The position numbers and the translations under genes are program-made. A stretch of 64,000 nt of DNA, from contig JACBFI010000013.1 of the NCBI GenBank assembly GCA_013391385.1, positions 1-64,000 of the forward strand. Reading direction: 5' to 3'. Positions 46,384 to 64,000 of the stretch are shown piece by piece. Source of the DNA: Sediminibacterium sp. Gen4 (lineage in GTDB: Bacteria; Bacteroidota; Bacteroidia; Chitinophagales; Chitinophagaceae). Each line of letters starts with the position of its first letter. Within the stretch, counting starts at the first letter, position 1. Under the pieces are notes generated by a model. That model had not been told where the DNA came from and did no database searches. It saw nothing but the letters and a program-made list of their open reading frames with translations.

Positions 46384-46384
46384 G

Positions 46385-49060: not shown

Positions 49061-49108
49061 TTTTAAGGCTGGCAAAACTACGAAAATAGTGGGGGAGAAC
49101 GAGGGGGT

Positions 49109-49134
49109 ATAAAAAAACCACGCATCGCGTGGTT
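49109..49134 (-). terminator. Rho-independent terminator of the small lipoprotein gene
   Basis: On the minus strand an 8-bp stem (AACCACGC with GCGTGGTT, 3-nt loop) is followed by a T run. It lies 26 bp beyond the stop at 49161 and upstream of valS. Confidence 0.87.
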
Positions 49135-49160
49135 CATATATACAATACAAGGGGATTTGC

Positions 49161-49400
49161 TTACCAGATGAATACGGCTTCATTCCATTCCAATAAGGAG
49201 ATAGCTGCCGGCTGTTGTTGTTCTGTTTTTTCGTCCTTAGGTGCTTTTTTAAGCTGTTCCAACGCATTACGTTGCTTTAGAGACATAGAAGTGCAGCAAC
49301 TTGCTACTTTCTTTCCTGCTGTTTTGCAGAAATTGCGAACTTGATGGGTACTGCAAGCTGTAAAAGCCATCAAGAGACAAATCAAAACAATATTCTTCAT
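49161..49400 (-). CDS. Small cysteine-containing exported protein, probable lipoprotein
   Basis: From the ATG at 49400 it is 79 residues, with a hydrophobic N-terminus ending in FTAC (Cys15), close to a lipobox. The rest has four more cysteines (NFC, SCC) and a Lys/Gln-rich C-terminal half. A longer frame to 49457 adds 19 residues before the signal sequence and is rejected. It has its own terminator. Function unknown. Confidence 0.68.
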   Translation of the reverse strand: MKNIVLICLLMAFTACSTHQVRNFCKTAGKKVASCCTSMSLKQRNALEQLKKAPKDEKTEQQQPAAISLLEWNEAVFIW

Positions 49401-49615
49401 GTCAGTTGTTTTCTGGTACAAAGCTAACCTGCTCATATGAACCATCAGGTTAACCATTGTTAATTATACCTAACGTTCCTTTATGAATTAGGTTACAGTT
49501 TTACTGCATTTTTTTCTGACTTATTGGTCTCCGTAAGGGCAAAAACATTACAGTCTGCTGTTTAAAAGCAGAAAAATCCAGAAAACACAGGGATGAAGCG
49601 AGAAATGCGCGTTTT

Positions 49616-49735
49616 TTAGGAGCGGCCCTTCCATTCGAGATAAGACAATACAACAACAGCAATCAGGATAATGGCTACAATGGCAGCATTACGTGCATTT
49701 TCACTAATGTGAAATTGTGATTTTGTGTTTGACAT
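49616..49735 (-). CDS. Small single-pass membrane protein, 39 residues
   Basis: ATG to TAA on the minus strand encodes 39 residues. It has a polar N-terminus (MSNTKSQFHISENARN), one membrane segment at residues 17-32 (AAIVAIILIAVVVLSY) and a short basic tail (LEWKGRS). The hydrophobic and charge pattern is what a real small membrane protein shows. No Shine-Dalgarno sequence is seen, common in Bacteroidota. It is the last host-type gene before the interrupted exonuclease gene. Confidence 0.55.
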   Translation of the reverse strand: MSNTKSQFHISENARNAAIVAIILIAVVVLSYLEWKGRS

Positions 49736-49899
49736 GGCAAGTAGATTTGGTACGTAAAAAGGTTTTTACGGTCTTCCAGAGGATATTTTATATCGTTCAG
49801 AAGAAATCCAAGCTGTCAATAAAACCGGGGCTGTCGGGGGTGAATTGAATCTTTGTTTGTAAGATATGGTTTAATTCCCGAATTTACAAGCCTTATTAT

Positions 49900-50050
49900 A
49901 TGCGATTTGCTATTGTGGATATCGAGACAACGGGCGGTTTTCCGGAACAACATGGGATGACCGAAATCGCTATCGTATTACACAATGGTACCGAAGTGGA
50001 AGGTAAATATGAGACCCTGATCAATCCCCACCAGGAAATTCCGCCCCACA
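49900..50050 (+). pseudogene. 5' fragment of a DnaQ-type 3'-5' exonuclease gene, cut by the island
   Basis: The first 49 or so codons encode an intact start of a DEDD exonuclease: FAIVDIETTGGFPEQHG with the catalytic Asp-x-Glu (residues 7-9), then TEIAIVLHNGTEVEGKYETL and INPHQEIPP. Family members then continue through a Thr-Gly-Ile motif and Exo II/III. Here, from about 50042, the frame changes abruptly to a low-complexity tail and stops at 50166. In relatives the gene is much longer (around 450 codons, often fused to a GIY-YIG domain). The missing part may lie beyond the right end of the island, outside this window. Confidence 0.82.
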
Positions 50051-50064
50051 CCACAAACACTAAC

Positions 50065-50101
50065 AAAAAGCCTTATAAATCAATAATTTATGAGGCTTTT
50101 T
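50065..50101. terminator. Strong bidirectional hairpin at the island edge
   Basis: A 16-bp stem (50065-50080 with 50086-50101) with a 5-nt loop has one G-U wobble. An A run on the left and a T run on the right let it terminate in both directions. It isolates island genes from the truncated exonuclease gene. Confidence 0.85.
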
Positions 50102-50107
50102 TTATTT

Positions 50108-50131
50108 GGGGTACACAGTGGGGTACACTTT
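50108..50131. repeat. Direct repeat GGGGTACAC, 12-bp period, possible attachment or recombinase site
   Basis: GGGGTACAC occurs at 50108-50116 and 50120-50128, in phase as GGGGTACACAGT then GGGGTACACTTT. A related TTAGGGTGCACAG follows at about 50223. The location next to the gene breakpoint suggests a recombination site. This is inference, as no recombinase is visible. Confidence 0.45.
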
Positions 50132-50613
50132 ATTTGGTCCAAATAATTACAAATCAACATTACTAATATAATAATATTTTGCCACTACGCCTTCTCTTGC
50201 ACACACAAATGCTTTTTTATTTAGGGTGCACAGATTTTGTGATTTCCCTTTCAGGATTCTGATTTGACTTATCTATTTTATAAGATAAGTCTATTGAATT
50301 AAAATGTGAAGGGAATAGCTTTGATTTCTAATTTTTCATCTCAAATAAGGGTGTTTAAAAAATAAAGCTACGGGGGAATATGAAGGGTATTGAAATAAAT
50401 TTAAAAGAATCACATAAATTGAGCCACTCAAATAAAGACTAGGTAATGAACTAATTATTTTGTTTTACTGAGACAAATATTTATTATAACTCCAGCTCTT
50501 TATTTTAAATGCACCAGAACAACTGAATATGAAAAATGAAATAACATCTTAAGAATTCCTTTACTGGAGATCAAATTGGCTCTTTTCATTGGCATAATAT
50601 ATCAATTCATCAT
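50132..50613. other. AT-rich non-coding stretch at the left of the island
   Basis: About 480 bp without a credible gene. It holds one perfect 9-bp dyad (GACTTATCT at 50268-50276, AGATAAGTC at 50285-50293, 8-nt spacer) that could be an operator or hairpin. No TAnnTTTG promoter or copy of the TAGAAA-N4-TTTCTA dyad is found here. The first regulator gene begins at its right end. Confidence 0.6.
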
Positions 50614-51225
50614 TTGAAGCCTACAAAAAAACATATAAAGGATCACGCATTAAAACTCTTTAATGAAAAAGGATTTGTGAATGTACGTCTACAACATATC
50701 GCAGATGCTGCTTTTGTGAGTGTAGGCCATCTTGCGTATCATTTCAAAAATAAAGATTTAATCATTGAAGATCTTTATGATGAGTTAAGAAGAAATCAAG
50801 AAGGGTTATTGAATAAGTTTAGGGTGGTTCCATTATTTGAAGACATCAACTTTTATTTGATTGAAATATATATGCAACAGTCAGAGCATATTTTCTTTTA
50901 TGCTGATATGCTTGAGGTGTTACGATCATTTCCAGAGATACAAACCAAACATTCCAAACACCTGATGTGGCAATCTGCACAAATTAAAATGATGATTGCA
51001 TTTAATTGTGCAAGGGGGTCAATGATAATGTTGACTGACCAACAGCAAGATTATCTTGCATGGCAGTTGCGCTCTATGATTGATATGTGGCATTATATTA
51101 AAAAAACCGAAGGGAAGAATGATGTATTATTACAACATTTTTTGGAAGATATTTGGGGTATTCTAAATCCATTTTTTACCGATATGGGTACCAGAGAATA
51201 TCATCAGCTATCTGGGGGTATATAA
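50614..51225 (+). CDS. TetR-family transcriptional regulator (first of a related pair)
   Basis: This 203-residue protein from a TTG start has the helix-turn-helix in about residues 8-50 (GFVNVRLQHIADAAFVSVG, then LAYHFKNKDLI), followed by a helical ligand domain. It is clearly related to the second regulator at 51642: both share RLQ-IADA, SVG-LAYHFKNK and a C-terminal aromatic region. The position before the hydrogenase genes suggests control of H2 metabolism, with an unknown ligand. No ATG start is available near the conserved N-terminus. Confidence 0.88.
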   Translation: MKPTKKHIKDHALKLFNEKGFVNVRLQHIADAAFVSVGHLAYHFKNKDLIIEDLYDELRRNQEGLLNKFRVVPLFEDINFYLIEIYMQQSEHIFFYADMLEVLRSFPEIQTKHSKHLMWQSAQIKMMIAFNCARGSMIMLTDQQQDYLAWQLRSMIDMWHYIKKTEGKNDVLLQHFLEDIWGILNPFFTDMGTREYHQLSGGI

Positions 51226-51239
51226 TTTTAATGTTTCTT

Positions 51240-51255
51240 TAGAGTATTTTTTCTA
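51240..51255. promoter_or_regulatory. Degenerate operator-like dyad between the TetR genes
   Basis: TAGAGT-ATTT-TTTCTA keeps the geometry of the hupS and hypA dyads (6-4-6), with the right half identical and the left half differing at two positions. It lies 24 bp before the possible start at 51280 and may give autoregulation of the second regulator transcript. Confidence 0.5.
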
Positions 51256-51279
51256 ATTTCAAGCAAATAAATTTTAGAA

Positions 51280-51639
51280 TTGTTTTCGAGATTTAAAATT
51301 GATTCTGAAGTATATGCTTCCATGTTGAAGTATATTGATGGATTTTCCTCTACTGAAGTAAATGGAATGAATGAGGATGCAACATTTATTAATGAAGATT
51401 TCTGGCTTCAAAATACCGCAGTAATAGAAAATGTAGAACGCAGGAATGGAGAATGGAATATCTATCTCATTTTTGCCCACCACCTTATTCCCCTGAAATT
51501 CATAAAGCGCAAGATTGTTAATATGTCTTGCCCCAAAAAAGCATTCCTGACTGCACATTATATGCGCAGACAGGCAGCAAAGGATCAAAGAGGAACTTTA
51601 GTATTAAATATGAAATTATTCCAAACTAATTTCAGTTAA
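51280..51639 (+). CDS. Unrecognised small protein between the TetR genes
   Basis: An open frame of up to 119 residues starts with TTG at 51280, or ATG at 51322 or 51367. It ends 2 bp before the second TetR start, as a co-translated gene would. The product is mixed alpha/beta with a basic C-terminal third (FIKRKIVNMSCPKKAF and HYMRRQAAKDQRG). No family is recognised. A minus-strand frame of 104 codons over the same DNA is less likely because it lacks operon context. It could be a third regulator component or an adaptor. Confidence 0.5.
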   Translation: MFSRFKIDSEVYASMLKYIDGFSSTEVNGMNEDATFINEDFWLQNTAVIENVERRNGEWNIYLIFAHHLIPLKFIKRKIVNMSCPKKAFLTAHYMRRQAAKDQRGTLVLNMKLFQTNFS

Positions 51640-51641
51640 TT

Positions 51642-52262
51642 ATGAGTGGTACAAAAGAAAAAATAATAGCCGAAAGCAAAGACCTTTTTTTTGAAACTGG
51701 TATTGCTAACACTAGGCTACAACAAATTGCAGATGCCTGTAGCATCAGTGTTGGTAACCTTGCCTATCATTTTAAAAACAAAGAGACAATAGTTGAGGCA
51801 GTGTATGACAATCTCTTTGAAGAATTGTCATCAATTTTATCTCAATATATTAACCATAAGCATTTACAAGGGTTTGATATTTTGTTTTCCCGACTCTATT
51901 TCTTTTATGAACATAATCGGTTTACTTTCAATAATACTTGGGAAATTGAACGCAACCATCCGGAGATTCAAAAAGAATGGCTCACTGTCAATAATAAAAT
52001 TCTACAACAGTTAAAACGAAAAATTCAAGTTTGTCAGCAAGATGAAATCTTCAAACCCGAGCCTGTAAAGGGAAATTATGACTTACTAGCCCACAGTCTA
52101 CTGATTCTGATCAACAGCTGGATTCCTCAACAAATACTACGACAAATGCCAGTTACAGAGAAATTATACAAAAATTGTTTATGGAATCTTCTTTATCCAA
52201 ATTTTTCAAAAAAAGGGGCTTCCATTTATCATGAGATTATTGTCCCCGAAAGATTTATATAA
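51642..52262 (+). CDS. TetR-family transcriptional regulator (second of a related pair)
   Basis: This 206-residue protein has an ATG start and its helix-turn-helix at about residues 8-52 (GIANTRLQQIADACSISVG, LAYHFKNKETI). The ligand domain has several Trp and Phe residues. It ends 76 bp before hupS. That gap contains two copies of the TAGAAA-N4-TTTCTA dyad over the promoter, so one or both TetR proteins probably repress (or activate) hupSL. The pair is diverged enough to sense different ligands or to form heterodimers. Confidence 0.9.
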   Translation: MSGTKEKIIAESKDLFFETGIANTRLQQIADACSISVGNLAYHFKNKETIVEAVYDNLFEELSSILSQYINHKHLQGFDILFSRLYFFYEHNRFTFNNTWEIERNHPEIQKEWLTVNNKILQQLKRKIQVCQQDEIFKPEPVKGNYDLLAHSLLILINSWIPQQILRQMPVTEKLYKNCLWNLLYPNFSKKGASIYHEIIVPERFI

Positions 52263-52266
52263 AAAA

Positions 52267-52314
52267 TTTGCTAGGTTAGAAAATTCTTTCTAGATTTAGA
52301 AATAATTTTCTAAA
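52267..52314 (+). promoter_or_regulatory. hupSL promoter with two operator dyads 20 bp apart
   Basis: TTTG (52267-52270), a 20-bp spacer and TAGATTTA (52291-52298) match the Bacteroidota promoter in all but one base. Dyad 1 (TAGAAA-ATTC-TTTCTA, 52277-52292) fills the spacer. Dyad 2 (TTTAGAAA-TAAT-TTTCTAAA, 52295-52314) covers the -7 box and start site. Their centres are exactly 20 bp apart, two helical turns, so two dimers would bind the same face of the DNA. The layout predicts repression by the neighbouring TetR proteins. Confidence 0.75.
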
Positions 52315-52338
52315 TCAACAGTATAAAAACGATTGCTT

Positions 52339-53319
52339 ATGGCTAATGTTTTATGGTTACAAGGTGGTGCCTGTAGTGGTAACACAATGTCTTTTTTAAA
52401 TGCTGAGGAACCTACGGTTGTAGAATTGGTTGTGGATTTCGGTGTCAATATTTTATGGCATCCATCCATAGGTTTGGAGATTGGCCATCAGGTAACTCAT
52501 CTTTTACATGATATTTTGGCAGGTAAAGTACAAATGGATATTCTTGTTTATGAAGGTTCTATAATTGAGGGACCGAATGGAACAGGGACTATGAACTATT
52601 TCTGCGACAGACCAATGAAAGATTGGGTGAAAGAACTTGCAGCAGTAGCTGGTTATGTAGTAGCCATTGGAGATTGTGCTACTTGGGGAGGTATCCCAGC
52701 AGTACCACCTAATCCTAGTGAAAGTACAGGTATGCAGTTTCTAAAAAAAGAAAAAGGAGGTTTCCTTGGAGCTGATTATAAATCAAAAGGCGGACTACCT
52801 GTTATTAATATTCCTGGTTGTCCTGCGCATCCAGATTGGATTACTCAAATTTTGGTAGCCATTTCTACAGGTAGAATTGGAGATGTTTTGATTGACGAAT
52901 TTCATCGTCCTAAAACTTTCTTTACAGATTTTGTACAAACTGGATGTCCTAATGCCATCAGCTTTGCCCAAAAAATGGATGGTGGCTTTGGTAAAAGAGG
53001 CGGATGTCTCTTTTATGAAGTAGGCTGTCGTGGACCAATGACCAGAGCAAGTTGTAACAGAATTTTATGGAACAGAACAAGTAGTAAGACCAGGGCTAAT
53101 CATCCATGTCTGGGTTGTACAGAGCCAGGCTTCCCACATAACGATCTTGTAAAAGGTTCTGTGTTTAAAACCATGAAGTATCTAGGCTTCTTGCCAAAAG
53201 AAGTACCAACTGGTGTTTCCAAACTTGGCTATTATTCAAGAGCCGGAGTTGAAAAGGTAATGGGATCTATAGAACGGGTTATGGGAACAGAACAGGAACA
53301 TTTTGAAACCAGTAAATAA
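52339..53319 (+). CDS. hupS: Uptake [NiFe]-hydrogenase small subunit, cyanobacterial HupS type (group 2a)
   Basis: This 326-residue electron-transfer subunit starts at once with the cluster-binding fold (NVLWLQGGACSGNT), without a Tat signal, so the enzyme stays in the cytoplasm. The sequence follows the cyanobacterial/actinobacterial group 2a subunit throughout. Conserved cysteines are Cys12, Cys113 and Cys161 for the proximal cluster. The fourth ligand position is Asn15 instead of Cys. Cys203, 223, 230, 239, 257 and 260 can bind the medial and distal clusters. A TTG two codons upstream is an alternative start. It pairs with hupL, 27 bp downstream. Confidence 0.95.
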   Translation: MANVLWLQGGACSGNTMSFLNAEEPTVVELVVDFGVNILWHPSIGLEIGHQVTHLLHDILAGKVQMDILVYEGSIIEGPNGTGTMNYFCDRPMKDWVKELAAVAGYVVAIGDCATWGGIPAVPPNPSESTGMQFLKKEKGGFLGADYKSKGGLPVINIPGCPAHPDWITQILVAISTGRIGDVLIDEFHRPKTFFTDFVQTGCPNAISFAQKMDGGFGKRGGCLFYEVGCRGPMTRASCNRILWNRTSSKTRANHPCLGCTEPGFPHNDLVKGSVFKTMKYLGFLPKEVPTGVSKLGYYSRAGVEKVMGSIERVMGTEQEHFETSK

Positions 53320-53346
53320 TCTTCAAATAAAATTCAAATAAAGAAT

Positions 53347-54945
53347 ATGTCTACAGTAAAAGAACTGAATATATCTCCAGTTGGTCGAGTTGAGGGTGAT
53401 TTGGATGTGAAAGTCTACATGGAAAATGGAGTTGTTACCCGCGCACACACGCAGGCTGCGATGTTTCGTGGTTTTGAAAGAATCATGCAGGGCAAAGATC
53501 CGCAAAGCGGATTAATTGTAACCCCACGTATTTGTGGTATATGTGGTGGATCGCATTTATATTGTGCATCCTCAGCTTTAGATACGGCATGGAAGACACA
53601 ACTTCCTCCTAACGCATTACTTTTAAGGGCACTAGGTCAGGCTACTGAAACAATCCAGAGTATACCCCGTTGGTTTTATGCCATCTTTGCAACAGATATG
53701 GCAAATAAAAAATTTGCAAACAAAAAACTCTACGATGAAGTTGTAAAAAGATTTGCTGCCTATGTAGGTACATCATTTCAATCAGGAGTTACTGCCAGCG
53801 GTAGACCGGTTGAGGTGTATGCACTTTTTGGAGGTCAGTGGCCGCATAGTAGCTATATGGTCCCTGGAGGTGTAATGTGCGCCCCTACTTTAAAGGATAT
53901 TACAAGGGCACATTCCATTATGAATCAATTCAGGAATGACTGGCTTGAAACCACTTGGCTGGGTTGTTCTATTGAAAAATACAGAAGGGTACAGAGTTGG
54001 GACGACTTAATGGCGTGGGTAGACGAAAATGAAAGCCAACGTAATAGTGATTTGGGGCTGTTCATTAGGGCTTCATTAGAATTTGGACTTGATAAGTTTG
54101 GTCAGGGTTGTGGAAATTATGTGGCTTATGGTACTTATTTGCACAAGGACAAATATAATAATCCAACAATTGAAGGTAGAAATGATGCTTTGATTAGTCC
54201 TTCAGGATACTATGACAGTCATTCAAAAAAGTATAGCGACTTCGATCATTTGCAGATTAAAGAGCATGTTACGCATAGCTGGTATCAGGATCACAAAGCA
54301 GCTCACCCATGGGATGAACCTATACCAACTCCAGTAACTTCAAAAAATCTTGAAGAGACTGATTTCAGTGGAAAATATAGCTGGTCAAAGGCTCCTAGAT
54401 ATATGAATAATGCTGCAGAGGCTGGCCCATTGTCAAGATGTTTAATGTATGCAAAACCAAATAATCTAGAGCACCAAACCAAGGACTTTCTTATTAAGGA
54501 TGCCATGGATAAAATGGGACCGAGTGTGTTCTTAAGAACATTGGCGCGTGTGCATGAAGCTCCAATGTTGTATGATAATATTGATACTTGGTTAAGACAA
54601 ATCAGGCTCGATGATGAATTTTATATCAAGCCTGAAGAAAGAGATGGTAAGGGCTTTGGAGCTACTGAAGCGGCTCGTGGCGCATTGGCACATTGGATCG
54701 AAATTGAAGATGGGGTGATAAAGAATTATCAGGTAATGGCACCTACCACTTGGAATGTAGGTCCAAATGATTCCGAAGGAAAGTCAGGCCCTATTGAATC
54801 AGCCCTTGAAGGAATTGAAATTGAAGATGCCAACGATCCAGTTGAAGTTGGTATGGTGGCTCGCTCTTTTGATAGTTGTTTGGTTTGTACGGTGCATGCA
54901 CATGATGCCAAGACAGGTAAACAATTAGCTAAGTTCAAGCTCTAA
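53347..54945 (+). CDS. hupL: Uptake [NiFe]-hydrogenase large subunit, HupL type (group 2a)
   Basis: This 532-residue catalytic subunit binds the Ni-Fe(CN)2CO centre. The N-terminal ligand motif is RICGICGGSH with Cys63 and Cys66. The C-terminal motif is DSCLVCTVH with Cys511 and Cys514. A 15-residue tail after His517 would be removed by the HupD protease once nickel is inserted. All four ligands are present, so the enzyme should be active. It is followed by a strong terminator before hupD. Confidence 0.96.
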   Translation: MSTVKELNISPVGRVEGDLDVKVYMENGVVTRAHTQAAMFRGFERIMQGKDPQSGLIVTPRICGICGGSHLYCASSALDTAWKTQLPPNALLLRALGQATETIQSIPRWFYAIFATDMANKKFANKKLYDEVVKRFAAYVGTSFQSGVTASGRPVEVYALFGGQWPHSSYMVPGGVMCAPTLKDITRAHSIMNQFRNDWLETTWLGCSIEKYRRVQSWDDLMAWVDENESQRNSDLGLFIRASLEFGLDKFGQGCGNYVAYGTYLHKDKYNNPTIEGRNDALISPSGYYDSHSKKYSDFDHLQIKEHVTHSWYQDHKAAHPWDEPIPTPVTSKNLEETDFSGKYSWSKAPRYMNNAAEAGPLSRCLMYAKPNNLEHQTKDFLIKDAMDKMGPSVFLRTLARVHEAPMLYDNIDTWLRQIRLDDEFYIKPEERDGKGFGATEAARGALAHWIEIEDGVIKNYQVMAPTTWNVGPNDSEGKSGPIESALEGIEIEDANDPVEVGMVARSFDSCLVCTVHAHDAKTGKQLAKFKL

Positions 54946-54960
54946 ATTCATAAATATCAA

Positions 54961-54994
54961 AAGAAAAAGCCTAACGAAAGTTGGGCTTTTTCTT
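54961..54994 (+). terminator. Terminator between hupL and hupD
   Basis: A 14-bp stem (54961-54974 with 54981-54994) around a CGAAAG loop has one G-U wobble. It is AT-rich outside and GC-rich at the tip, with U-rich 3' arm TTTTTCTTT. It should end most hupSL transcripts and give less message for the maturation genes. Confidence 0.85.
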
Positions 54995-55064
54995 TGAGGT
55001 AACTAAATTTTTTTTAGCTTTTACCACGAATTTCTACTCTCCTTACATTAATATTGGAATCAGA

Positions 55065-55550
55065 ATGAGAAGTAAAGCAACAGCCATAATGGGCTTTGGG
55101 AATCCCTGTAGAAGTGATGACGCCATTGGTATTTATGTTATAGACCAGCTAAGGAAATATGTCGGTGAAGAACCCAATATTTCAATATTAGATATGGGTA
55201 CAAGTGCATTTGAAGTACTTTACCAATTGAAAGGTCATCAAAAAATAATTTTGGTGGATGCAGTCGTAAATACAGGAGAGCAGATTGGGACCTTATACAA
55301 GGTGCCTGCACAAGAAGTGATGACGGCTCCTCAAGAAGACCCCATGGTTTTCTTGCATAGTATAAAGTGGGATCAGGCATTGAGCTATGCAAAAAAAATT
55401 ATGCAGAGCGATTACCCTGAAGATATACAAGTATACCTGATAGCAATTGAAAATACAAAATTAGATATGGAATTGAGTGACGAAGTAAAAAAAGCTGGAG
55501 ATAAAGTAGTCCAAATCATTCTTAAAGAAGAACTCTCGTATATAGTTTAA
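55065..55550 (+). CDS. hupD: Hydrogenase maturation protease HupD
   Basis: This 161-residue HybD-type endopeptidase cuts the C-terminal tail of HupL after nickel insertion. Family features are IMGFGNPCRSDDAIG near the start (acidic nickel-sensing residue), ILVDAV mid-protein and the LHSIKW histidine region. The longest frame starts at 54981, inside the 3' arm of the upstream terminator, and adds residues without family likeness, so the ATG at 55065 is preferred. Confidence 0.9.
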   Translation: MRSKATAIMGFGNPCRSDDAIGIYVIDQLRKYVGEEPNISILDMGTSAFEVLYQLKGHQKIILVDAVVNTGEQIGTLYKVPAQEVMTAPQEDPMVFLHSIKWDQALSYAKKIMQSDYPEDIQVYLIAIENTKLDMELSDEVKKAGDKVVQIILKEELSYIV

Positions 55551-55571
55551 GCAATCTAAGAAAATTCAACA

Positions 55572-55883
55572 TTGATTACACTTACAAACAGGCACTTGAT
55601 CATCAGCAACGAGATCGTTGAAAGTATTTTTGGGTTTTCTTCTCAGGTAAACTGGGTATATTATGATGTCAAGAAAATATTGATGATTGCATCGCAGCAT
55701 GATGATATTTTTAAAGGCCTGCATAAAACTTCTATGAGTATGCTGAAATTCAAAAACAGTAAAGGTGACAGAAGTATATCGTTAGAAGAAATGCTGATTG
55801 ACAACGAACTGGATAGTAGTGATAGGTCATTGGAATTTAATGCAGACGAAAAAATGAAAATACTGACAGTACATTTTTCATAA
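55572..55883 (+). CDS. Unrecognised small protein in the hydrogenase locus
   Basis: This is 103 residues from a TTG start, ending 3 bp before the TPR protein gene and so probably co-translated with it. It is acidic with no cysteine pair, membrane segment or signal. The N-terminal half (FGFSSQVNWVYYDVKKILMIA) looks like alternating strands and helices. I do not recognise the family. The position between hupD and the TPR gene suggests a hydrogenase accessory role. Confidence 0.62.
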   Translation: MITLTNRHLIISNEIVESIFGFSSQVNWVYYDVKKILMIASQHDDIFKGLHKTSMSMLKFKNSKGDRSISLEEMLIDNELDSSDRSLEFNADEKMKILTVHFS

Positions 55884-55886
55884 ATT

Positions 55887-57359
55887 ATGATTACAATATT
55901 TGTTTCGACAGAACTAAGAGAATCAGTAAAAAATCTGATTAATCAGGAGGATAGACTAAATGAATTAGTCAATTTATCCGTTGAAGACGCTGATGCAATT
56001 ACAATTAAAGTTTCTTCTATAATTGAAGTGTTACCCGACTGGGAGAATCTGCAACCACCAGTTCTATTTCCTAGTGTTTCATATAAGGATAAAATTTTAC
56101 TAGGGATTATTTATGCCAAACTAAATAATTACGAGAAGGCCTATGAGATCTTAGAAGAATATCCGGATATATTACAAACTGTTGATATTTTAAACCGACT
56201 CCAAAATTCAGTACCATTTCAAGGATATGAATGGCAATTTGATTCCTTTGAAAATCTGCACAATAAAGCAATTGCAATCCACTATGGATCACAGAATGAA
56301 AGCGCTTCAAGTTTAGATATAGCAGAGGCATATGAATCTGCCATTAACTGTAGTAAAGAAAAATCAAGAAGACAATTCACTGCGTATCATCTTGCACAAT
56401 TTTATCTTGATCAGAATATTGAAGCAAAAGCACTGAATATCATCAATACTATTTTAAATGAATGTGATTCTCCTAAAATATGCATTGCATTTAAAGATAT
56501 TCTTTGTAAAATATGGCAGAAAAATTTAGTAGTACCTTATGATGTTAAAGTACTAGGAGAATTGAAGACTACATTATGGGAATGCCTAGAATATTATGAG
56601 TTGAATGGTAGGATGACAGAAGCTGCAATGATTTTGATGGATGCTACTTATATTGCTACAATTAGCGAAAGTTTTAGTGAAGCGCTGGGTTATATCAGTA
56701 GGGCAATTACCATAATTGAAAAGGAACAACTTCTTGAGCTTCTAGCCCAAGCACAATTTTCAAAGGGAAATCTACTCCAAACATGGGCACAAAATGGGAA
56801 TCCTCAGTTCTATCGGGCAGCAGTTCAATCATATCAGGCAGCATTGAAGACATTTACCAAAGAGGATTATCCAGATATTTTTGCTGAAATTCATCATCAA
56901 TTAGGGAAAGTTTATGCAGAAATTCCAGACGAGGTAAAGAAGAAAGGGGTATGGGCTGCTGTTTCAGTTTCATCTTTCAACGAGGCACTCAATTATTATA
57001 ATAAGATTGATTTTCCTTATCAGTTTGCAATGATTTGTAATAGTATGGGGAATGCCTATACCAAATATCCGGCTGCTTTGCATACAGACAACTTCGATAA
57101 GGCACTTGCCTGGTATAGGGAAGCATTGGATATTAGAACCACAGCAACATATCCCTTAGAACGTGTTTTAACGCTCTGTAACTATTTAGAAGCTAGCTGG
57201 TTTGTTGGAAATAAGGAGGAATTTGACGAAGATCGATTCAACGAAATGATGAATGTAGCTAATGAAATCATCCTGCTTAGTAATGATGAGAAGATTCTCA
57301 ATAGCGCTAAGAATGATATTCAAAGACTAGAAGCGCTCAAGGCAGAAACTCAAAATTAG
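55887..57359 (+). CDS. TPR-repeat protein in the hydrogenase locus
   Basis: This 490-residue all-helical protein has several tetratricopeptide-like repeats, clearest at about residues 240-460 (for example EALGYISRAITIIEKE, AAVQSYQAALKTF, KALAWYREALDI). It has no signal peptide and is predicted to be a cytoplasmic protein-protein scaffold. Its place with hupD and hypA suggests a chaperone or assembly factor for the hydrogenase. The stop codon lies inside the operator-like dyad of hypA. Confidence 0.85.
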   Translation: MITIFVSTELRESVKNLINQEDRLNELVNLSVEDADAITIKVSSIIEVLPDWENLQPPVLFPSVSYKDKILLGIIYAKLNNYEKAYEILEEYPDILQTVDILNRLQNSVPFQGYEWQFDSFENLHNKAIAIHYGSQNESASSLDIAEAYESAINCSKEKSRRQFTAYHLAQFYLDQNIEAKALNIINTILNECDSPKICIAFKDILCKIWQKNLVVPYDVKVLGELKTTLWECLEYYELNGRMTEAAMILMDATYIATISESFSEALGYISRAITIIEKEQLLELLAQAQFSKGNLLQTWAQNGNPQFYRAAVQSYQAALKTFTKEDYPDIFAEIHHQLGKVYAEIPDEVKKKGVWAAVSVSSFNEALNYYNKIDFPYQFAMICNSMGNAYTKYPAALHTDNFDKALAWYREALDIRTTATYPLERVLTLCNYLEASWFVGNKEEFDEDRFNEMMNVANEIILLSNDEKILNSAKNDIQRLEALKAETQN

Positions 57360-57373
57360 AAAATATTTTCTAA
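57356..57373. promoter_or_regulatory. Operator-like dyad upstream of hypA
   Basis: TTAGAAAATATTTTCTAA is a perfect 18-bp palindrome containing the same core, TAGAAA-N4-TTTCTA, as the two dyads on the hupS promoter. It overlaps the TPR gene stop codon and lies 72 bp before hypA. It suggests that hypA onward has a second promoter under the same regulator, though I see no clear TTTG/TAnnTTTG pair. Confidence 0.65.
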
Positions 57374-57445
57374 GGACTCATTTTATATGTTGTTTCTAGT
57401 CTATGTTGACTTATTTTCAAGGTTCATTAGTTATGACTATGTTCC

Positions 57446-57790
57446 ATGCATGAAATATCACTTGTTAGAAATATTTTTAATACTCTTGAGGCTGAATTCC
57501 CCGACAGATTCAGCGAAATCCGAAATATCTATTTAACTGTAGGAGAGTTGAGTAACGTACAACCTATCTTAATGCAAAATGCATTTGAGGCAGTGAAGGA
57601 AGATGACCCTAAATATAGAAATACAATACTTAATGTTGAAGTATTACCCATCAAAATATTTTGTGATTCATGTAATCAGGAGACTATTGTAAGTCAATAT
57701 AAATTTATTTGTAAATATTGCCAGTCTTCCTCCCGCAACGTGATACAAGGGGAAGAATTATTAATCAGTAAAATTGAATTTATAACTTAA
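57446..57790 (+). CDS. hypA: Hydrogenase nickel incorporation protein HypA
   Basis: This 114-residue protein starts with the nickel-binding MHE motif. Its zinc site uses Cys73, Cys76, Cys89 and Cys92 (two CxxC pairs). It delivers nickel to HupL together with HypB, whose gene follows 5 bp downstream. Confidence 0.95.
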   Translation: MHEISLVRNIFNTLEAEFPDRFSEIRNIYLTVGELSNVQPILMQNAFEAVKEDDPKYRNTILNVEVLPIKIFCDSCNQETIVSQYKFICKYCQSSSRNVIQGEELLISKIEFIT

Positions 57791-57795
57791 AAGCT

Positions 57796-58509
57796 ATGAG
57801 TCAACCCAAAAGTAACAGAGCTCCAGTTGGAAGTGTACAATGTGAGAATACCACTTTGAATCTATTGAAGGCAAATGATTTTGTTGCAAAAGCAATTAAG
57901 GAGAAACTTGCTCCTTATAATGTGCTAGTATTAAATATATGTTCTTCTCCAGGAAGTGGTAAGACAACATTGATGCAGGAAACAGGGAAAAAATTAAAAG
58001 ATACTTTGAATATTGGTGTTTTAGTAGGTGATCCCGAAACAGAAAGAGATGCTATTCGAATCAGGGAGTCAGGAATTGATTGTTTACAAATTGTAACTGG
58101 AGGAATGTGCCATATTGAAGCGCAGATGATATTACAAGCACTAGATCATTTTGATTATCAGCATCTGGATATATTATTTATTGAAAATGTTGGCAACCTG
58201 GTTTGCCCTGCTGCATTCGATCTTGGGGAAGATTACAGAATTACATTAATTGCCAGCACAGAGGGTGATGATAAACCCAAAAAATATCCACGAATGTTTT
58301 TGACTAGTGAGTTGATGGTGGTAAGTAAATCAGATCTTCTGCCTTATGTGCCATTTAGTGTAGAGGCTGTTACAAAAGATGCAAGGGAGATTAATCCTGA
58401 TATAGAGGTTATAACTATAAGTAGCCTAAACGGTATGGGAATAGATGAATGGTGTAGTTGGCTGAAACAAAAAGTAAGTGAGAAAAAACAAAATTTAGTT
58501 ACAACCTAA
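57796..58509 (+). CDS. hypB: Hydrogenase nickel incorporation GTPase HypB
   Basis: This 237-residue GTPase has its P-loop at residues 53-58 (SSPGSGKTT context), the metal-site segment TGGMCHIEA and ENVGNLVCPA. It supplies energy and nickel for hydrogenase maturation. The N-terminus has no histidine-rich nickel store. The base-specificity motif reads SKSD rather than NKxD, a mild departure from the usual GTPase motif. Confidence 0.94.
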   Translation: MSQPKSNRAPVGSVQCENTTLNLLKANDFVAKAIKEKLAPYNVLVLNICSSPGSGKTTLMQETGKKLKDTLNIGVLVGDPETERDAIRIRESGIDCLQIVTGGMCHIEAQMILQALDHFDYQHLDILFIENVGNLVCPAAFDLGEDYRITLIASTEGDDKPKKYPRMFLTSELMVVSKSDLLPYVPFSVEAVTKDAREINPDIEVITISSLNGMGIDEWCSWLKQKVSEKKQNLVTT

Positions 58510-58515
58510 GTTCAT

Positions 58516-60900
58516 TTGCAAAACATTCATACATATCATATTCACCTGACTGGTATAGTACAAGGAGTTGGCATGAGACCATTTGTTGTGCAGCTAGCGC
58601 TTCATTTTAAATTAAATGGTTGGATCAATAACACAACTGATGGGGTACATATTGAATTCAATGGTACTGAATATCAGGCAAATCAATTCCTTGATCGAAT
58701 TATAAGTGCTCCACCTCCTTTTGCTTTAATTAGAAAGTATACTTTATTTAAAACCGATAATAAACTTTTCGATTCTTTTGAAATAATTGAGAGTGATGTT
58801 AATTCTATTCCAGATCTTTTATTAACTCCAGATTTTGGATTGTGTTTTGAATGCAGAACTGAACTGCATAGTGTTTCAAACAGAAGATTTCATTATCCAT
58901 TCATAACTTGTACAAATTGTGGTCCGAGATTTTCAATAACCAAAAAACTTCCTTACGACCGATTGAATACTTCGATGAAAAATTTTTCAATCTGTGATAC
59001 GTGTAGTCATGAGTATAGCACTGTTAGTGACCGGAGATTTTACTCTCAAACTAATTCTTGTCACAAATGCAGTATTTCAATGAAATTGTTTGAAAATGGT
59101 AAAGAGACAGAAACATTAAACCCGGAAATGATCTTGGAGATAATTCAACAATTTCTCAAAGAGGGTAAGATCGTTTCGGTAAAAGGTGTTGGGGGATATG
59201 TATTACTTTGTGATGCGACTATTTCCAGTAGTATACAATTATTAAGAAAGCGCAAACAGCGACAAGCTAAACCGTTTGCTTTATTGTTCCACTCAGTGGA
59301 ACAGATGAAAACTTTTGTAGAATGGAGTGAATCTGAAAAGAAATGTCTTCAATCATCTGTCGCTCCAATTCTACTTCTCAAAAGCAAAAAAAATAGTGAA
59401 CTTGCAATAGATGATATTGCCCCTGGCCTTTCCCATCTGGGTTGTATGCTTCCAAATTCACCACTATTGGAATTGATTGCTGAATCGTTCAATAAACCTT
59501 TGATTTGTACCAGTGCTAATATCAGTGAAAGTCCTATACTATTTCGAGATATAGATGCTTTGACCCATCTACATCACATTGCAGATATTATCTTGAGCCA
59601 TAACAGAGAGATTGTAGCAGCACAGGATGATAGTGTGATCAAGTTCGCCAGATATTCAAATCAAAAAATTATTATCCGCCGGGCAAGAGGCTTAGCTCCG
59701 AATTTTCTGGGGTATATTCAAAATCAAGATAAATCTATTCTTGCTACAGGAGCGTTGATGAAAAGTAGCTTTACCTTTCAAACTCGTCAAAAAACATTTG
59801 TAAGTCAGTATCTTGGTAGCACGGGTACAATTGAGGCTCAAGAAATGTATCGGAATTCGTTGAAAAATCTGACTGATCTGTTGCAATTTAAACCTGAGAA
59901 AATTGTGTCAGACAATCATCCTGATTATTTTTCAACTCAGTTAGCGAAGGAAATATCTACTATTCATGCTATCCCGTTTAATCAGGTTCAACACCATAAG
60001 GCACACTTTGCAGCAGTCCTTGCAGAGCATTCACTTCTCGATAGTCATGAATCAATCCTTGGAGTAATTTGGGATGGAACAGGAATTGGTGATGATGCAC
60101 AAATATGGGGGAGTGAATTTTTTAAATTTGAGAATAACAGTATGCTGAGGTGTTATCATTTTGACTATTTTCCTCAAGTACTTTATGATAAAATGTCAAG
60201 AGAGCCCAGGCTTTCTGCTATGGCAATTTGTGATGATGTATTAGGGAGTGATACTTTGTTGAAAGAGAAATTTACTGATGTTGAATGGTCCTATTATAAA
60301 AAGTTACTTGGAACAGGAACGAAAATCAATTGCTGTTCTCTGGGCAGAGTTTTTGATGCTGTTGCTTCTTTACTAGGTCTATCAGATAAGCAAAGTTATG
60401 AAGGGGAGGCAGCTATGCTTTTACAGGATCTTGCCGAGAAGTATACTGATGAATATGGTTATGATATCGGTGAGAGTTATTTTATGGAAGGAGCTCACTA
60501 CTACCGAATCTCCACTAGTTCTTTATTCAGTTCAATCATACGGGATATTCACAAAAATAAAACTAACTCATTTATTGCTGCAAAATTTCATTTTTCGCTT
60601 GTTCATCTTGTCGAAATTATAGCTGGTAATATTGGTGTCAAAAAGGTAGCTTTTAGTGGAGGTGTATTTCAGAATAGTCTGCTCGTTGATATGCTTCAAC
60701 AGTTGCTTCAAAAAAAGTTAGAACTTTTTTTTCACGATCAATTACCGCCTAATGATGAAAATATTTCATTTGGGCAGATGGTTTACGTTGATCGACAGAT
60801 TGATAGCTCCTTAATTATCGATTTGAATGATGTTAGAAATCATGTTACTATAGAACAACCAGAAAATCAATTATTGATAACAGAAAAAGATAAATTTTAA
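58516..60900 (+). CDS. hypF: Carbamoyltransferase HypF
   Basis: This 794-residue enzyme makes the cyanide ligands of the Ni-Fe centre from carbamoyl phosphate and hands the carbamoyl group to HypE. The domain order is complete: acylphosphatase (VQGVGMRPF at residues 15-23), zinc fingers (CFEC, CTNCGPRF, CDTC and CHKC between about 110 and 195), YrdC-like (GVGGYVLLCDA) and the Kae1-like transferase half (VQHHKAHFAAV, FSGGVFQN). The start is TTG, 6 bp after hypB; no ATG exists before the conserved N-terminus. Confidence 0.95.
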   Translation: MQNIHTYHIHLTGIVQGVGMRPFVVQLALHFKLNGWINNTTDGVHIEFNGTEYQANQFLDRIISAPPPFALIRKYTLFKTDNKLFDSFEIIESDVNSIPDLLLTPDFGLCFECRTELHSVSNRRFHYPFITCTNCGPRFSITKKLPYDRLNTSMKNFSICDTCSHEYSTVSDRRFYSQTNSCHKCSISMKLFENGKETETLNPEMILEIIQQFLKEGKIVSVKGVGGYVLLCDATISSSIQLLRKRKQRQAKPFALLFHSVEQMKTFVEWSESEKKCLQSSVAPILLLKSKKNSELAIDDIAPGLSHLGCMLPNSPLLELIAESFNKPLICTSANISESPILFRDIDALTHLHHIADIILSHNREIVAAQDDSVIKFARYSNQKIIIRRARGLAPNFLGYIQNQDKSILATGALMKSSFTFQTRQKTFVSQYLGSTGTIEAQEMYRNSLKNLTDLLQFKPEKIVSDNHPDYFSTQLAKEISTIHAIPFNQVQHHKAHFAAVLAEHSLLDSHESILGVIWDGTGIGDDAQIWGSEFFKFENNSMLRCYHFDYFPQVLYDKMSREPRLSAMAICDDVLGSDTLLKEKFTDVEWSYYKKLLGTGTKINCCSLGRVFDAVASLLGLSDKQSYEGEAAMLLQDLAEKYTDEYGYDIGESYFMEGAHYYRISTSSLFSSIIRDIHKNKTNSFIAAKFHFSLVHLVEIIAGNIGVKKVAFSGGVFQNSLLVDMLQQLLQKKLELFFHDQLPPNDENISFGQMVYVDRQIDSSLIIDLNDVRNHVTIEQPENQLLITEKDKF

Positions 60901-60904
60901 TACT

Positions 60905-61174
60905 ATGTGTTTAGCAATTCCAGGTAAAATTCAAAGTATTGATACCATTCACAATGGGATGGTACGCATGGCAAAGGTCTCTTTTGGCGGAATCATTAAG
61001 GAAGCTTCGCTAGAGATGTTGCCTGCAGCTGATATTGGCGATTATGTTCTTGTACATGTAGGAGTAGCCATAAGTAAAATTGATGAAGCTGAAGCAGCAA
61101 AGACATTTGAATACCTTAAGGAAATCGGCGAAATCGATGAACTTATAGAACATACACAGGTAGATAAAAATTAA
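60905..61174 (+). CDS. hypC: Hydrogenase assembly chaperone HypC
   Basis: This 89-residue chaperone begins with MCLAIPGKI; the essential Cys2 binds the Fe(CN)2CO unit with HypD and then HupL. Length and the VLVHVGVAISKID motif are normal. It starts 4 bp after the hypF stop and ends 10 bp before hypD. Confidence 0.95.
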   Translation: MCLAIPGKIQSIDTIHNGMVRMAKVSFGGIIKEASLEMLPAADIGDYVLVHVGVAISKIDEAEAAKTFEYLKEIGEIDELIEHTQVDKN

Positions 61175-61184
61175 TGAATCGTCT

Positions 61185-62282
61185 ATGAAATTTATTAATG
61201 AATATAGGGATGCTTCGGTTGTAAAGGAATATATTTCTGAATTGCATAGGATTACTACAAGGCCATGGACAATCATGGAAGTATGTGGTGGTCAAACACA
61301 TAGTCTTGTAAAAAACGGAATTATTGGTCTTTTGCCTGACAACATTACTATGGTGCACGGTCCGGGTTGTCCGGTATGTGTTACTCCATTACACTTGATT
61401 GACAAAGCTGTTTATCTTGCAATGGAAAGAAATGTTATACTTTGTTCCTATGGTGATATGATTCGTGTCCCAGGCAGTAAAAATAGTTTACTCGAAGCAA
61501 AAGCAAATGGTGCTGATGTTAGAATACTTTATTCTCCACTAGAAGCAGTTACTCTTGCAAAACAAAATCCTGATAAAGAAGTGGTGTTTTTTGCAGTTGG
61601 ATTTGAAACAACTGCACCTGCCAATGCACTCAGTGTATTACATGCGAAGAGGGAAGGGATAAAGAATTACTCCATACTTACTTCTCATGTTTTAGTACCT
61701 CCAGCTATTGAAGCCATTGTAAATGATCAAACAAATATTGTTCAGGGTTTCCTTGCTGCAGGCCATGTTTGCACTATTATGGGAATTGGAGATTACTATC
61801 CCCTTGTAGAAAAAAATAAACTCCCTATTGTTATTACCGGGTTTGAGCCTGTAGATTTACTTCAGGGTATTACAATGCTCATAAAACAACTGGAGAACGG
61901 TGAAAATAAATTGGAAAATCAATACAGTAGGGTAGTAAAGCCAGAAGGTAATCCGGAAGCAGTCAAGGTAATTGAGCAGGTTTTTGAAATTACTCATCGT
62001 GACTGGAGGGGTATTGGTGAAATTCCTTATAGTGGCTACGAAGTGAGAAAGGAGTTAGAAGCATATAACGCTAATGTTAAGTTTGATATTCAACTTGAAA
62101 AAGCAGAAGAAAGTCCTGATTGTATTGCAGGGGAAATTTTAAGAGGTATCAAAAAACCAAATCAATGCCCGCAATTTGGAAAAAGATGCACGCCACTGAA
62201 TCCACTTGGTGCTCCCATGGTGAGCAGCGAGGGGGCTTGCGCTGCCTATTATCATTTTAGTAATGTAGATGTACTTGTTTAG
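61185..62282 (+). CDS. hypD: Hydrogenase maturation protein HypD
   Basis: This 365-residue iron-sulfur protein is the scaffold where cyanide and CO ligands are put on iron. The CGGQTH motif contains Cys34. GPGCPVC contains Cys62 and Cys65. GFETTAP and the C-terminal cluster cysteines (CPQFGKRC, EGACAAY) are present. It works with HypC and HypE, encoded on either side. Confidence 0.95.
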   Translation: MKFINEYRDASVVKEYISELHRITTRPWTIMEVCGGQTHSLVKNGIIGLLPDNITMVHGPGCPVCVTPLHLIDKAVYLAMERNVILCSYGDMIRVPGSKNSLLEAKANGADVRILYSPLEAVTLAKQNPDKEVVFFAVGFETTAPANALSVLHAKREGIKNYSILTSHVLVPPAIEAIVNDQTNIVQGFLAAGHVCTIMGIGDYYPLVEKNKLPIVITGFEPVDLLQGITMLIKQLENGENKLENQYSRVVKPEGNPEAVKVIEQVFEITHRDWRGIGEIPYSGYEVRKELEAYNANVKFDIQLEKAEESPDCIAGEILRGIKKPNQCPQFGKRCTPLNPLGAPMVSSEGACAAYYHFSNVDVLV

Positions 62283-62305
62283 GTTCCCCTCAAAAATAAG
62301 CTTCA

Positions 62306-63361
62306 ATGGATGCTAATATAAAAATGCAATTATCTTGTCCCATGCCCAAATTCGATTTTGATACCATTAATTTAGGACATGGTAGTGGAGGAGTATTGAC
62401 GCATAAATTATTGAGTAGTGGTGTATTTGATGTACTCAAAAATGATCAGCTTAATCAAAAGCATGATGGTGCTATATTTGATTTGAAAGGACAACTTGCT
62501 TTCAGTACAGATAGTTATGTAGTAAATCCTATTTTTTTCCCGGGCGGTGATATTGGAGAACTTGCTATTAATGGAACTGTAAACGACCTTGCTATGTGCG
62601 GAGCAATGGCTAAATATCTATCATTGGCGTTTATTATTGAAGAAGGTTTGCGAATGGAAACATTTTGGCAAATACTTGACAGTATTAAAAAATGCTGCGA
62701 CAAGGCAGGAGTGCAAGTTGTAACTGGCGATACAAAAGTGGTAGAGAAGGGGAAAGGTGATCAGATTTTTATCAATACTTCCGGAATAGGGTTAGTTCAT
62801 GAACACGCCAGAATTGGGTTGTCCAGTATTCAAAAAGGAGATGTTCTTATTGTGAGTGGGAATTTAGCGGCACATGGCATTGCTATCATGAGTAAGAGAG
62901 AAGGATTAGAATTTGAAACTGATATTGTGAGTGATACTACAAACTTGAATTTTACAGTTGAAAAATTACTTAATAAGTTCGGATTGGATATTCATTTTCT
63001 TAGAGATGCTACTAGAGGTGGATTGGCTTCAGTGCTTAATGAGATAGCAAAGGATGGTTCACAAGGAATCGATATTCGACAGATAGATATTCCTATGGAA
63101 GAGCAGGTAAGTGGAGCATGCGAAATGCTTGGACTTGACCCGCTGTATGTGGCTAACGAAGGTGTATTTATTTTAGTTGTAAAAAAAGAAATTGCTAAAG
63201 AAGTCCTTGATTTTCTTAAAAATGATGAAAACGGGAAAATGGCATCTATAATGGGGAGTATCACAGATCAACATATTGGACAGGTAATACTTGAAAGTAG
63301 CATAGGCGGTAAGCGTGTTGTCAATATGTTGCCTGGTGAACAATTACCACGTATATGTTAA
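62306..63361 (+). CDS. hypE: Hydrogenase expression/formation protein HypE
   Basis: This 351-residue ATP-dependent dehydratase turns the carbamoyl group on its C-terminal cysteine into thiocyanate. The HGSGG motif is near residue 25, RDATRGGLA mid-protein, and the protein ends in PRIC with the acceptor Cys351. An inner ATG at residue 7 is also possible. Confidence 0.95.
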   Translation: MDANIKMQLSCPMPKFDFDTINLGHGSGGVLTHKLLSSGVFDVLKNDQLNQKHDGAIFDLKGQLAFSTDSYVVNPIFFPGGDIGELAINGTVNDLAMCGAMAKYLSLAFIIEEGLRMETFWQILDSIKKCCDKAGVQVVTGDTKVVEKGKGDQIFINTSGIGLVHEHARIGLSSIQKGDVLIVSGNLAAHGIAIMSKREGLEFETDIVSDTTNLNFTVEKLLNKFGLDIHFLRDATRGGLASVLNEIAKDGSQGIDIRQIDIPMEEQVSGACEMLGLDPLYVANEGVFILVVKKEIAKEVLDFLKNDENGKMASIMGSITDQHIGQVILESSIGGKRVVNMLPGEQLPRIC

Positions 63362-63376: not shown

Positions 63377-64000
63377 TTGAATAAAATTAAAAAGATAGCA
63401 GAATTTTATGGGCAGTTGGATAATCCATTGCTTGCTCCTCGAGGGGTATTTATGCATGATAACACCTTAGTCGTTTCAGATACAGGTCAAAACAGAGTTT
63501 TTATATGGCATGATTTTAATTTTCAAACATTTCAAAAGCCAAATGTCATTTTGGGACAAAAAGATGATCATCAGATGGATCGTAATGCTGGTAAAGAGGT
63601 CTCAGGCTCTTCTTTGCAATATCCATCCGGCATTTGGACCAATGGTGAAAAAATAATAGTTGCAGATGCATGGAACCATCGAGTTTTGGTTTGGAATCAA
63701 ATGCCAACTAAAAATTTCCAAGAAGCGGACATAGTAATTGGTCAAAAAGATTTCAATAGTAATCTCCCGAACATTGAAGGTATAGGAAAGTCTCCAGACA
63801 ATAATACATTGAATTGGCCTTATGGTGTTTATAGTAATGGCTCAGAACTTTGGATTGCTGATACTGGAAATCGTCGAGTATTGTATTTTGAAAAAATCCC
63901 TTCTAAAAATTTTGCTAATGCTAGTGAAGTGATTGGGCAGAATAATTTTTTTGAGAAAGATTATGATAATAATAATGCGGTCTGGCCATATTCAATAAAA
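63377..64000 (+). CDS. NHL-repeat beta-propeller protein, 3' end beyond the window
   Basis: An open frame of 208 codons from a TTG runs off the right edge. Three NHL-type repeats are visible: LVVSDTGQNRVFIW, IIVADAWNHRVLVW and LWIADTGNRRVLYF, separated by about 60-75 residues and each followed by an (V/I)IGQ motif. No signal peptide is seen in the chosen start. It follows hypE by 15 bp and therefore belongs to the hydrogenase locus. It may serve in electron transfer, assembly or protein binding; the function is not known. Confidence 0.8.
   Translation, partial: MNKIKKIAEFYGQLDNPLLAPRGVFMHDNTLVVSDTGQNRVFIWHDFNFQTFQKPNVILGQKDDHQMDRNAGKEVSGSSLQYPSGIWTNGEKIIVADAWNHRVLVWNQMPTKNFQEADIVIGQKDFNSNLPNIEGIGKSPDNNTLNWPYGVYSNGSELWIADTGNRRVLYFEKIPSKNFANASEVIGQNNFFEKDYDNNNAVWPYSIK

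Follow-up and report, generated by a model that had tools for sequence, protein, structure and literature searches.

The window analysed here is a stretch of 64,000 nucleotides from Sediminibacterium sp. Gen4, whose genome comprises 3,522,122 bases in 59 contigs (the assembly is 98% complete). Near its end lie two genes for TetR-family regulators, tetR1 and tetR2, with a small reading frame (orf119) between them, followed by the genes of a [NiFe]-hydrogenase (hup) and of its maturation (hyp). Exact copies of the 6-4-6 inverted repeat TAGAAA-N4-TTTCTA, hereafter the dyad, stand before hupS and before the hyp operon, and comparison with loci from many Bacteroidota, distant relatives included, in which repeat and tetR genes are retained side by side, makes it very probable that the longer form of this repeat, TTAGAAA-N4-TTTCTAA, is a TetR1/TetR2 operator that would control a dedicated Huc-hydrogenase and hyp regulon. 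The elements on which this reading turns are as follows:

50614..51225, forward strand: tetR1, a TetR-family regulator of 203 amino acids (PF00440 2e-9, PF13972 1e-8), in the TetR1 clade (46 members)
51240..51255, forward strand: degenerate dyad TAGAGTATTTTTTCTA between tetR1 and orf119, two mismatches, right half perfect
51280..51639, forward strand: orf119, a small conserved protein between tetR1 and tetR2
51642..52262, forward strand: tetR2, a TetR-family regulator of 206 amino acids (PF00440 6e-10), in the TetR2 clade (56 members)
52277..52292, forward strand: predicted operator 1 of hupS, TAGAAA-ATTC-TTTCTA, an exact dyad
52297..52312, forward strand: predicted operator 2 of hupS, TAGAAA-TAAT-TTTCTA, an exact dyad ending 26 base pairs (bp) before the ATG
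52339..53319, forward strand: hupS (hucS), small subunit of a group 2a-like [NiFe]-hydrogenase (PF01058, PF14720); the ATG is at 52339, with an in-frame TTG also at 52333
57357..57372, forward strand: predicted operator of the hyp operon, TAGAAA-ATAT-TTTCTA, an exact dyad found at the same place in relatives
57446..57790, forward strand: hypA (PF01155)

An earlier note on this DNA had pointed to the three exact dyads (starting at 52277, 52297 and 57357) as the only ones in the window, and this is the case: three are present against 0.03 expected, a count reached in none of 100 shuffles of the window. The two hupS copies are centred 20 bp apart, as it had also stated, and the degenerate copy at 51240-51255 is present with its two mismatches. 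Across the whole genome exact copies occur at these three sites only, with two copies for the reversed control word. Dyads with up to two mismatches number 13 in the window versus 6.4 expected (3 of 100 shuffles reach 13). Reading the dyads as a product of chance, or of base composition in AT-rich intergenic DNA, draws on Markov shuffles in which the choice of word was left free, 3 of 200 of which held some perfect 6-4-6 dyad word in three copies. The window-internal statistics are only moderate, and it is the comparative evidence that is decisive.

If these dyads serve a dedicated regulon under the adjacent TetR proteins, as the earlier note proposed, they should be kept at related loci and be rare elsewhere. 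Our sample consists of the best 80 of at least 554 confirmed relatives' loci, 59 of which carry at least one tetR of this kind upstream in the stretch examined, leaving 21 without, where absence means absence from that stretch (some of the 21 are on short contigs). A dyad with at most one mismatch lies within 260 bp of hupS in 58 of the 59 tetR-linked loci, and 55 of the 58 are exact, versus 0-1 of 59 for each of six control dyads placed under the same scrutiny near hupS. By this criterion a dyad stands at hupS in one of the 21 loci without a linked tetR. At the lone miss among the 59 (L067) a second hupS is preceded by two exact dyads, and the genome of the lone dyad-bearing locus without tetR (L022) has tetR1-orf119-tetR2 on another contig. 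For seven of the 21 loci the whole genome was searched, and the best match to TetR2 had an E value of 9.7e-14 in one and 1.5e-8 or weaker in six.

Fifty whole genomes, chosen from those behind the relatives' loci, were searched for the 18-mer TTAGAAA-N4-TTTCTAA, which was present in 41 of the 43 genomes with TetR and in 0 of the 7 without. The two TetR genomes that lack it (G060 and G069) have 16-mers with one mismatch at hupS (loci L004 and L018). In all, 86 of the 88 copies are in hup/hyp loci or before one TonB-receptor gene: 71 are inside hup loci (up to 10 kilobases (kb) either side of hupS), and the remaining 17 comprise nine at hyp operons or at the G053 hup locus, six before a TonB-dependent receptor, and two, in G080 and G088, that look unrelated to the regulon. 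Across these 50 genomes the reversed 18-mer was found 17 times, with 9 copies falling in TetR-less ones. The receptor preceded by the 18-mer was found in four Runella genomes, Emticicia and Lacihabitans; a HupE_UreJ_2 gene adjoins it in one Runella (L096) and in Emticicia (L099), and a search of the Lacihabitans receptor stretch with the L096 protein found no HupE-like gene.

Nor are the dyads scattered more widely. All three copies in the Gen4 genome are at this locus, and 60 other genomes of the genus hold 16 isolated copies in 14 of them (68 copies for the reversed control); four of these 16 were inspected and had no regulon gene nearby. The exact double dyad occurs once in 395 genomes of the class, at a hupS, in a search so insensitive that it misses the window itself, whose first dyad precedes a G. 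Genes resembling tetR2 were found in 12 of 395 genomes of the phylum at E<=1e-20, and the three genomes with scores above 250 bits (that of the window, G053 and G373) all have hydrogenase. Neither a hup gene nor a dyad was seen at the remaining TetR2-like places (L124-L132, each of about 3.5 kb), and the small loci examined in the hydrogenase genomes G667 and G758 showed no dyad or tetR. On the strength of these genome-wide counts, together with the conservation at hupS, we reject a chance origin of the dyads, which we regard as extremely improbable.

A separate observation concerns the six Cyclobacteriaceae-type loci (L014, L015, L018, L026, L029 and L030), all of which have a dyad with one mismatch about 8.2 kb downstream of hupS. 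In L015 this distal dyad is followed, on the other strand, by a gene pair matching Peripla_BP_2 and FecCD, a possible candidate metal importer in the regulon.

The co-occurrence of dyad and tetR could also arise if another, unlinked regulator binds the dyad and the TetR pair merely travels with the hydrogenase genes, linkage alone being enough to yield some of it. On the HupS tree the TetR label changes 3 times (4 before L022 and L067 are corrected) and the dyad label changes together with it; the independent TetR/dyad pairs number 3, or 1 on starred branches, which is too few for any claim of significance. These low counts weigh against assigning the dyad to the TetR pair, as does the trans TetR locus of the L022 genome, which has no dyad in the 12 kb examined. 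An unlinked regulator nevertheless appears improbable, given that the L022 genome keeps its hupS dyad with the TetR pair on another contig, that the seven TetR-less hup genomes are without the 18-mer anywhere, and that the dyad is kept at loci with TetR1 alone or TetR2 alone. The dedicated regulon that the earlier note had predicted under the adjacent TetR proteins is supported by dyad conservation, by genome specificity and by co-absence (20 of the 21 tetR-less loci). The predicted operator, its targets and its linkage to the TetR genes come directly from this comparison, and from them we infer that TetR1 and TetR2 are the binders of the dyad.

A tree of 102 TetR proteins, from which pieces below 150 residues such as the broken tetR2 of L047 were excluded, resolves two unmixed clades, TetR1 (46) and TetR2 (56). 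The N-terminal TetR helix-turn-helix domain PF00440 is above its cut-off in both proteins of the window, and the AlphaFold model of TetR2 (predicted local distance difference test (pLDDT) 92.8) has the all-helical TetR fold, its best match in the PDB being 3nnr of the TetR family (template modelling (TM) score 0.84). Between TetR1 and TetR2 of the same locus (42 pairs) identity is 66% over residues 25-50 and 25% over the C-domain. Of the recognition-helix residues, S36, G38, Y42, H43 and K47 are identical in 56/56 TetR2 and in all 45 TetR1 that have sequence at these positions, and N39 is found in 56/56 TetR2 and 39/45 TetR1, with H in six TetR1 including that of the window. Since similar recognition helices occur in other Bacteroidota TetRs, this common helix is only consistent with two regulators of one operator. 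Searches for TetR1 came up empty in four Spirosoma and 4 of 5 Runella genomes, and L037, L041 and L045 have no TetR2 at the locus; where TetR2 is alone, the Spirosoma loci have one dyad and those of four Runella two, and the three loci with TetR1 alone have one. Because dyads persist where TetR1 or TetR2 is missing, one of the two is probably enough. As to whether each regulator reads a dyad of its own, the dyad counts at these single-TetR loci give no support either way.

The sites themselves show some regularities. Across 96 different hupS dyad sites, none with more than one mismatch, conservation is stricter in the promoter-side half TTTCTA than in the far half TAGAAA, whose fourth base is A in 83%, as if one half had an extra role or one subunit read loosely. 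Neighbouring dyads at hupS are spaced 23 or 24 bp in 21 of 42 cases. Between tetR1 and orf119 a dyad with at most one mismatch is found in 13 of 57 loci (eight control dyads gave a mean of 0.25 and a maximum of 2), and the degenerate copy of the window is probably a weak candidate operator before orf119.

For the promoters, a model is available from Flavobacterium johnsoniae, in which the -7 box reads TAHHTTTG with its first T at -12 and a -33 element is hardly evident (PMC6847099). The corresponding candidates in the window are:

52267..52270, forward strand: TTTG, weak candidate -33 element of hupS
52291..52298, forward strand: TAGATTTA, doubtful candidate -7 box of hupS, two departures from TAHHTTTG
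57412..57419, forward strand: TATTTTCA, weak candidate -7 box of the hyp operon, 39 bp after the hyp operator, two departures from the consensus

The near-consensus hupS promoter described in the earlier note did not hold up: TTTG-N20-TAGATTTA lacks the final G and has a G that is virtually absent in F. johnsoniae, as far as the account in PMC6847099 goes. Where two such dyads stand 20 bp apart a TAnn(T)TTA string is nearly forced, so that TAGATTTA is largely a by-product of the dyad spacing, and among nine loci compared TTTG occurs at that upstream distance only in the window and its near relatives L024 and L047. The hyp box lies 39 bp from its dyad in L024 and L055, and 38 bp in L047.

Relatives give a more regular picture. 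In a hupS set of 58 sequences (near-copies dropped, L085 left out), 41 TAnnTTTG boxes lie within 60 bp downstream of the hupS-proximal dyad, 37 of them starting 15-17 bp after it, and TAnnTTTR stands 15-18 bp after the dyad in 43 of the 58 (mean 0.66, maximum 4 in 1000 shuffles). In a hyp/receptor set of 34 exact-dyad sequences, again with near-copies dropped, 20 have a box at 15-18 or 37-40 bp, 5 of them near and 15 far (mean 0.61, maximum 4 in 1000 shuffles). Setting the first T of the box to -12 puts the dyad centres near -36 and -59, about 23 bp apart. A -33 TTTG is present in 1 of 16 far-slot promoters, which says little, the -33 element being hardly evident in F. johnsoniae (PMC6847099).

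Several points count against operators acting from such slots. The slots were defined after viewing the data, and the shuffles keep single-base composition only. The near slot is without a -7 box in 15 of the 58 hup sequences, that of the window included, and also in L085 outside that set; 14 of the 34 hyp/receptor sequences have no box in either slot, among them that of the window, where only TATTTTCA is present; and the one-mismatch Cyclobacteriaceae sites, outside the 34, fit the slots in 0/4 cases before hypB and 0/6 before the ABC transporter.

Since the predicted operator stands in most relatives at set distances, near or far, ahead of the -7 box, and at many hyp and receptor promoters at the far one only, its sign would most likely be activation, since a lone far site near -59 suits contact with RNA polymerase more than occlusion, though we hold this sign less firmly than the operator itself. 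Against activation, the hupS promoter of the window does not fit the slot rule, the window and L004, L005, L024, L046, L047, L055 and L057 have dyads 19-20 bp apart and no slot box, and most TetR proteins are repressors (PMC7652896). Classical repression, in which the TetR pair on its dyads would block hupS and hyp until released by a ligand, is accordingly a serious alternative, albeit one we think somewhat doubtful. Such repression is typical of TetR proteins, though not universal; the two hupS operators of the window would cover the core promoter, and at four loci (the window, L024, L047 and L005) only 35-39 bp separate the beginning of the second dyad from the gene start, as extrapolated from the first codon of the query, which leaves hardly any room for a promoter between them. 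At the near slot the dyad overlaps the -33 region, and autoregulation would account for the dyad that some loci have before orf119. What occlusion would hardly explain are the hyp/receptor operators with a far slot only, near -59 and 37-40 bp from the -7 box.

The enzyme under this predicted control is, by its sequence, a group 2a-like (Huc-type) uptake [NiFe]-hydrogenase, because both subunits score far above the next kinds against Huc chains in the PDB (465 bits versus 123 for HupS, with 7uur, 7utd and 7uus as matches, and 675 versus 215 for HupL). These PDB chains presumably derive from Mycobacterium smegmatis. For group 2a clusters, PMC7784904 describes a Bacteroidota HucL radiation with 34 Bacteroidota genomes, naming Runella as a bearer, and a Rieske protein gene, hucE, commonly associated with the hydrogenase genes. 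Searching the Gen4 genome with HupS at E<=0.001 returned one [NiFe] small-subunit match, HupS itself, and hence no second, regulatory [NiFe]-hydrogenase was seen in this 98% complete assembly.

The remaining genes of the locus are:

53347..54945, forward strand: hupL (hucL), hydrogenase large subunit (PF00374)
54981..55550, forward strand: hupD, maturation protease (PF01750; TIGR00072 above its cut-off), the start being likely the ATG at 55065
55572..55883, forward strand: orf103, a small conserved hup-operon protein with tblastn matches in relatives and no match in the Pfam/NCBIfam family scans
55887..57359, forward strand: TPR-like gene of the hup operon, with a weak TPR_2 match below cut-off and tblastn matches in relatives; its stop codon TAG coincides with bases 1-3 of the hyp operator
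57796..58509, forward strand: hypB (PF02492)
58516-60900, 60905-61174, 61185-62282 and 62306-63361, forward strand: genes with syntenic tblastn matches in relatives, which from their order are probably hypF, hypC, hypD and hypE, respectively
63377..64000 and past the window end (contig 63377-64450), forward strand: NHL-repeat protein (PF01436 6e-16)
contig 64452-65087, after the NHL-repeat gene: NicO-like membrane protein (NicO E 6.5e-4 and DsbD_2 3e-5, both below cut-off)

The small protein between the two regulators has an invariant AAKDQRG near its C-terminus (42 sequences aligned). It has no Pfam or NCBIfam match, and its AlphaFold model, of middling confidence (pLDDT 78), gave no PDB match at E<=0.001. 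Many loci (L005, L028, L033, L034, L039, L042, L048, L050, L052, L068, L110 and others) have a weaker orf119 relative inside the hup operon, between orf103 and the TPR gene, and orf119 looks like a paralogue of a hydrogenase-operon gene.

A tandem hupS pair was observed in 13 loci (L009, L010, L012, L013, L035, L067, L068, L071, L075, L078, L081, L083 and L085). The first copy is 66-80% identical to the HupS of the window and retains the cysteines present in its neighbour, and the operator dyads precede the second copy; such a lone extra small subunit near the regulators might serve in electron sensing or as an alternative subunit. An Rfam scan of positions 44000-64000 at gathering thresholds gave no match. 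No close HupS relative was found in the 36 genomes searched among the 60 others of the genus (best E 6e-26, 32% identity), and for this reason the hydrogenase locus looks acquired, or lost widely in the genus. The contig also carries a gene for a tyrosine recombinase, about 11 kb beyond hypE (L094 14121-15395).

Taken as a mechanism, TetR1 and TetR2 would bind the TTAGAAA-N4-TTTCTAA dyads before the hup and hyp operons and so control the Huc-type hydrogenase operon and the hyp maturation operon, to which the regulon in relatives would add the gene between the regulators, the TonB-dependent receptor and possibly the ABC transporter. The signal might be starvation or redox state, or nickel. As a tentative extension, a paralogous TetR pair, possibly cooperating or heterodimeric, may activate the Bacteroidota Huc regulon from the slots near -36/-59 and couple H2 scavenging to metal import, via the TonB receptor/HupE-type system in some genomes and the ABC transporter in others, a one-component control that would not sense hydrogen and would act on a hydrogenase of the atmospheric type.

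This arrangement resembles TetR/AcrR regulators such as MtrR, AcrR, TtgR and RutR in its TetR_N domain and all-helical fold (nearest solved structures 3nnr and 3rh2) and in its near-perfect palindromic, here predicted, operators close to the promoter and the regulator genes. It is unlike the usual members in that two old paralogues flank a small protein and apparently share one operator, in that most relatives have the operators in a pair of fixed slots ahead of the -7 box, and in that the targets are a Huc hydrogenase and its maturation genes. Activation within the TetR family is exemplified by LuxR/HapR. TetR control by palindromes is already known to be common, and TetR activators exist, as with FasR, a TetR-like activator on three inverted repeats, which we cite as a parallel for activation and not as a relative of TetR1/TetR2 (PMC7652896).

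Hydrogen-sensing control of hydrogenases proceeds through HupUV/HoxBC, HupT/HoxJ and HupR/HoxA. A case of it is that of Cupriavidus necator (PMC13289019). Control of the HupUV/HoxBC type likewise has a dedicated regulator of an uptake hydrogenase regulon, whereas the predicted regulators here are one-component TetR proteins and a single small-subunit match leaves no regulatory hydrogenase in sight. To that extent the contrast with HoxA or HupR two-component control drawn in the earlier note agrees with our data; the rest of it is unsupported, HoxA/HupR-type response regulators not having been searched for. The huc genes of M. smegmatis, likewise of group 2a, are under GylR-dependent catabolite control, in which GylR does not bind the huc promoter (PMC13098282), and direct huc regulators in that species are described as unidentified (PMC13098282, PMC13289019); the main text of PMC13098282 has no occurrence of 'tetr'. 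The group 2a gene clusters of PMC7784904 are alike in their Bacteroidota HucL radiation and in the maturation and NHL-repeat genes nearby, and the main text of that paper, with no occurrence of 'tetr', reports no TetR pair or operator. Among the matches listed in the open-licence literature there was no report of a TetR-hydrogenase regulon, which falls short of showing its absence from print; as far as that literature tells, a paired TetR module linked to the Huc hydrogenase in Bacteroidota is new.

With the Huc hydrogenase, bacteria can live on hydrogen at trace levels. Comparative genomics now yields, for a Bacteroidota radiation with named strains of Runella, Spirosoma, Emticicia and Cecembia among its members, two candidate regulator genes, a predicted operator of 18 bp and a small target list. 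If true, the near-constant distance to the -7 box would make this a case of a TetR activator with a promoter geometry, in a phylum with non-classical promoters.

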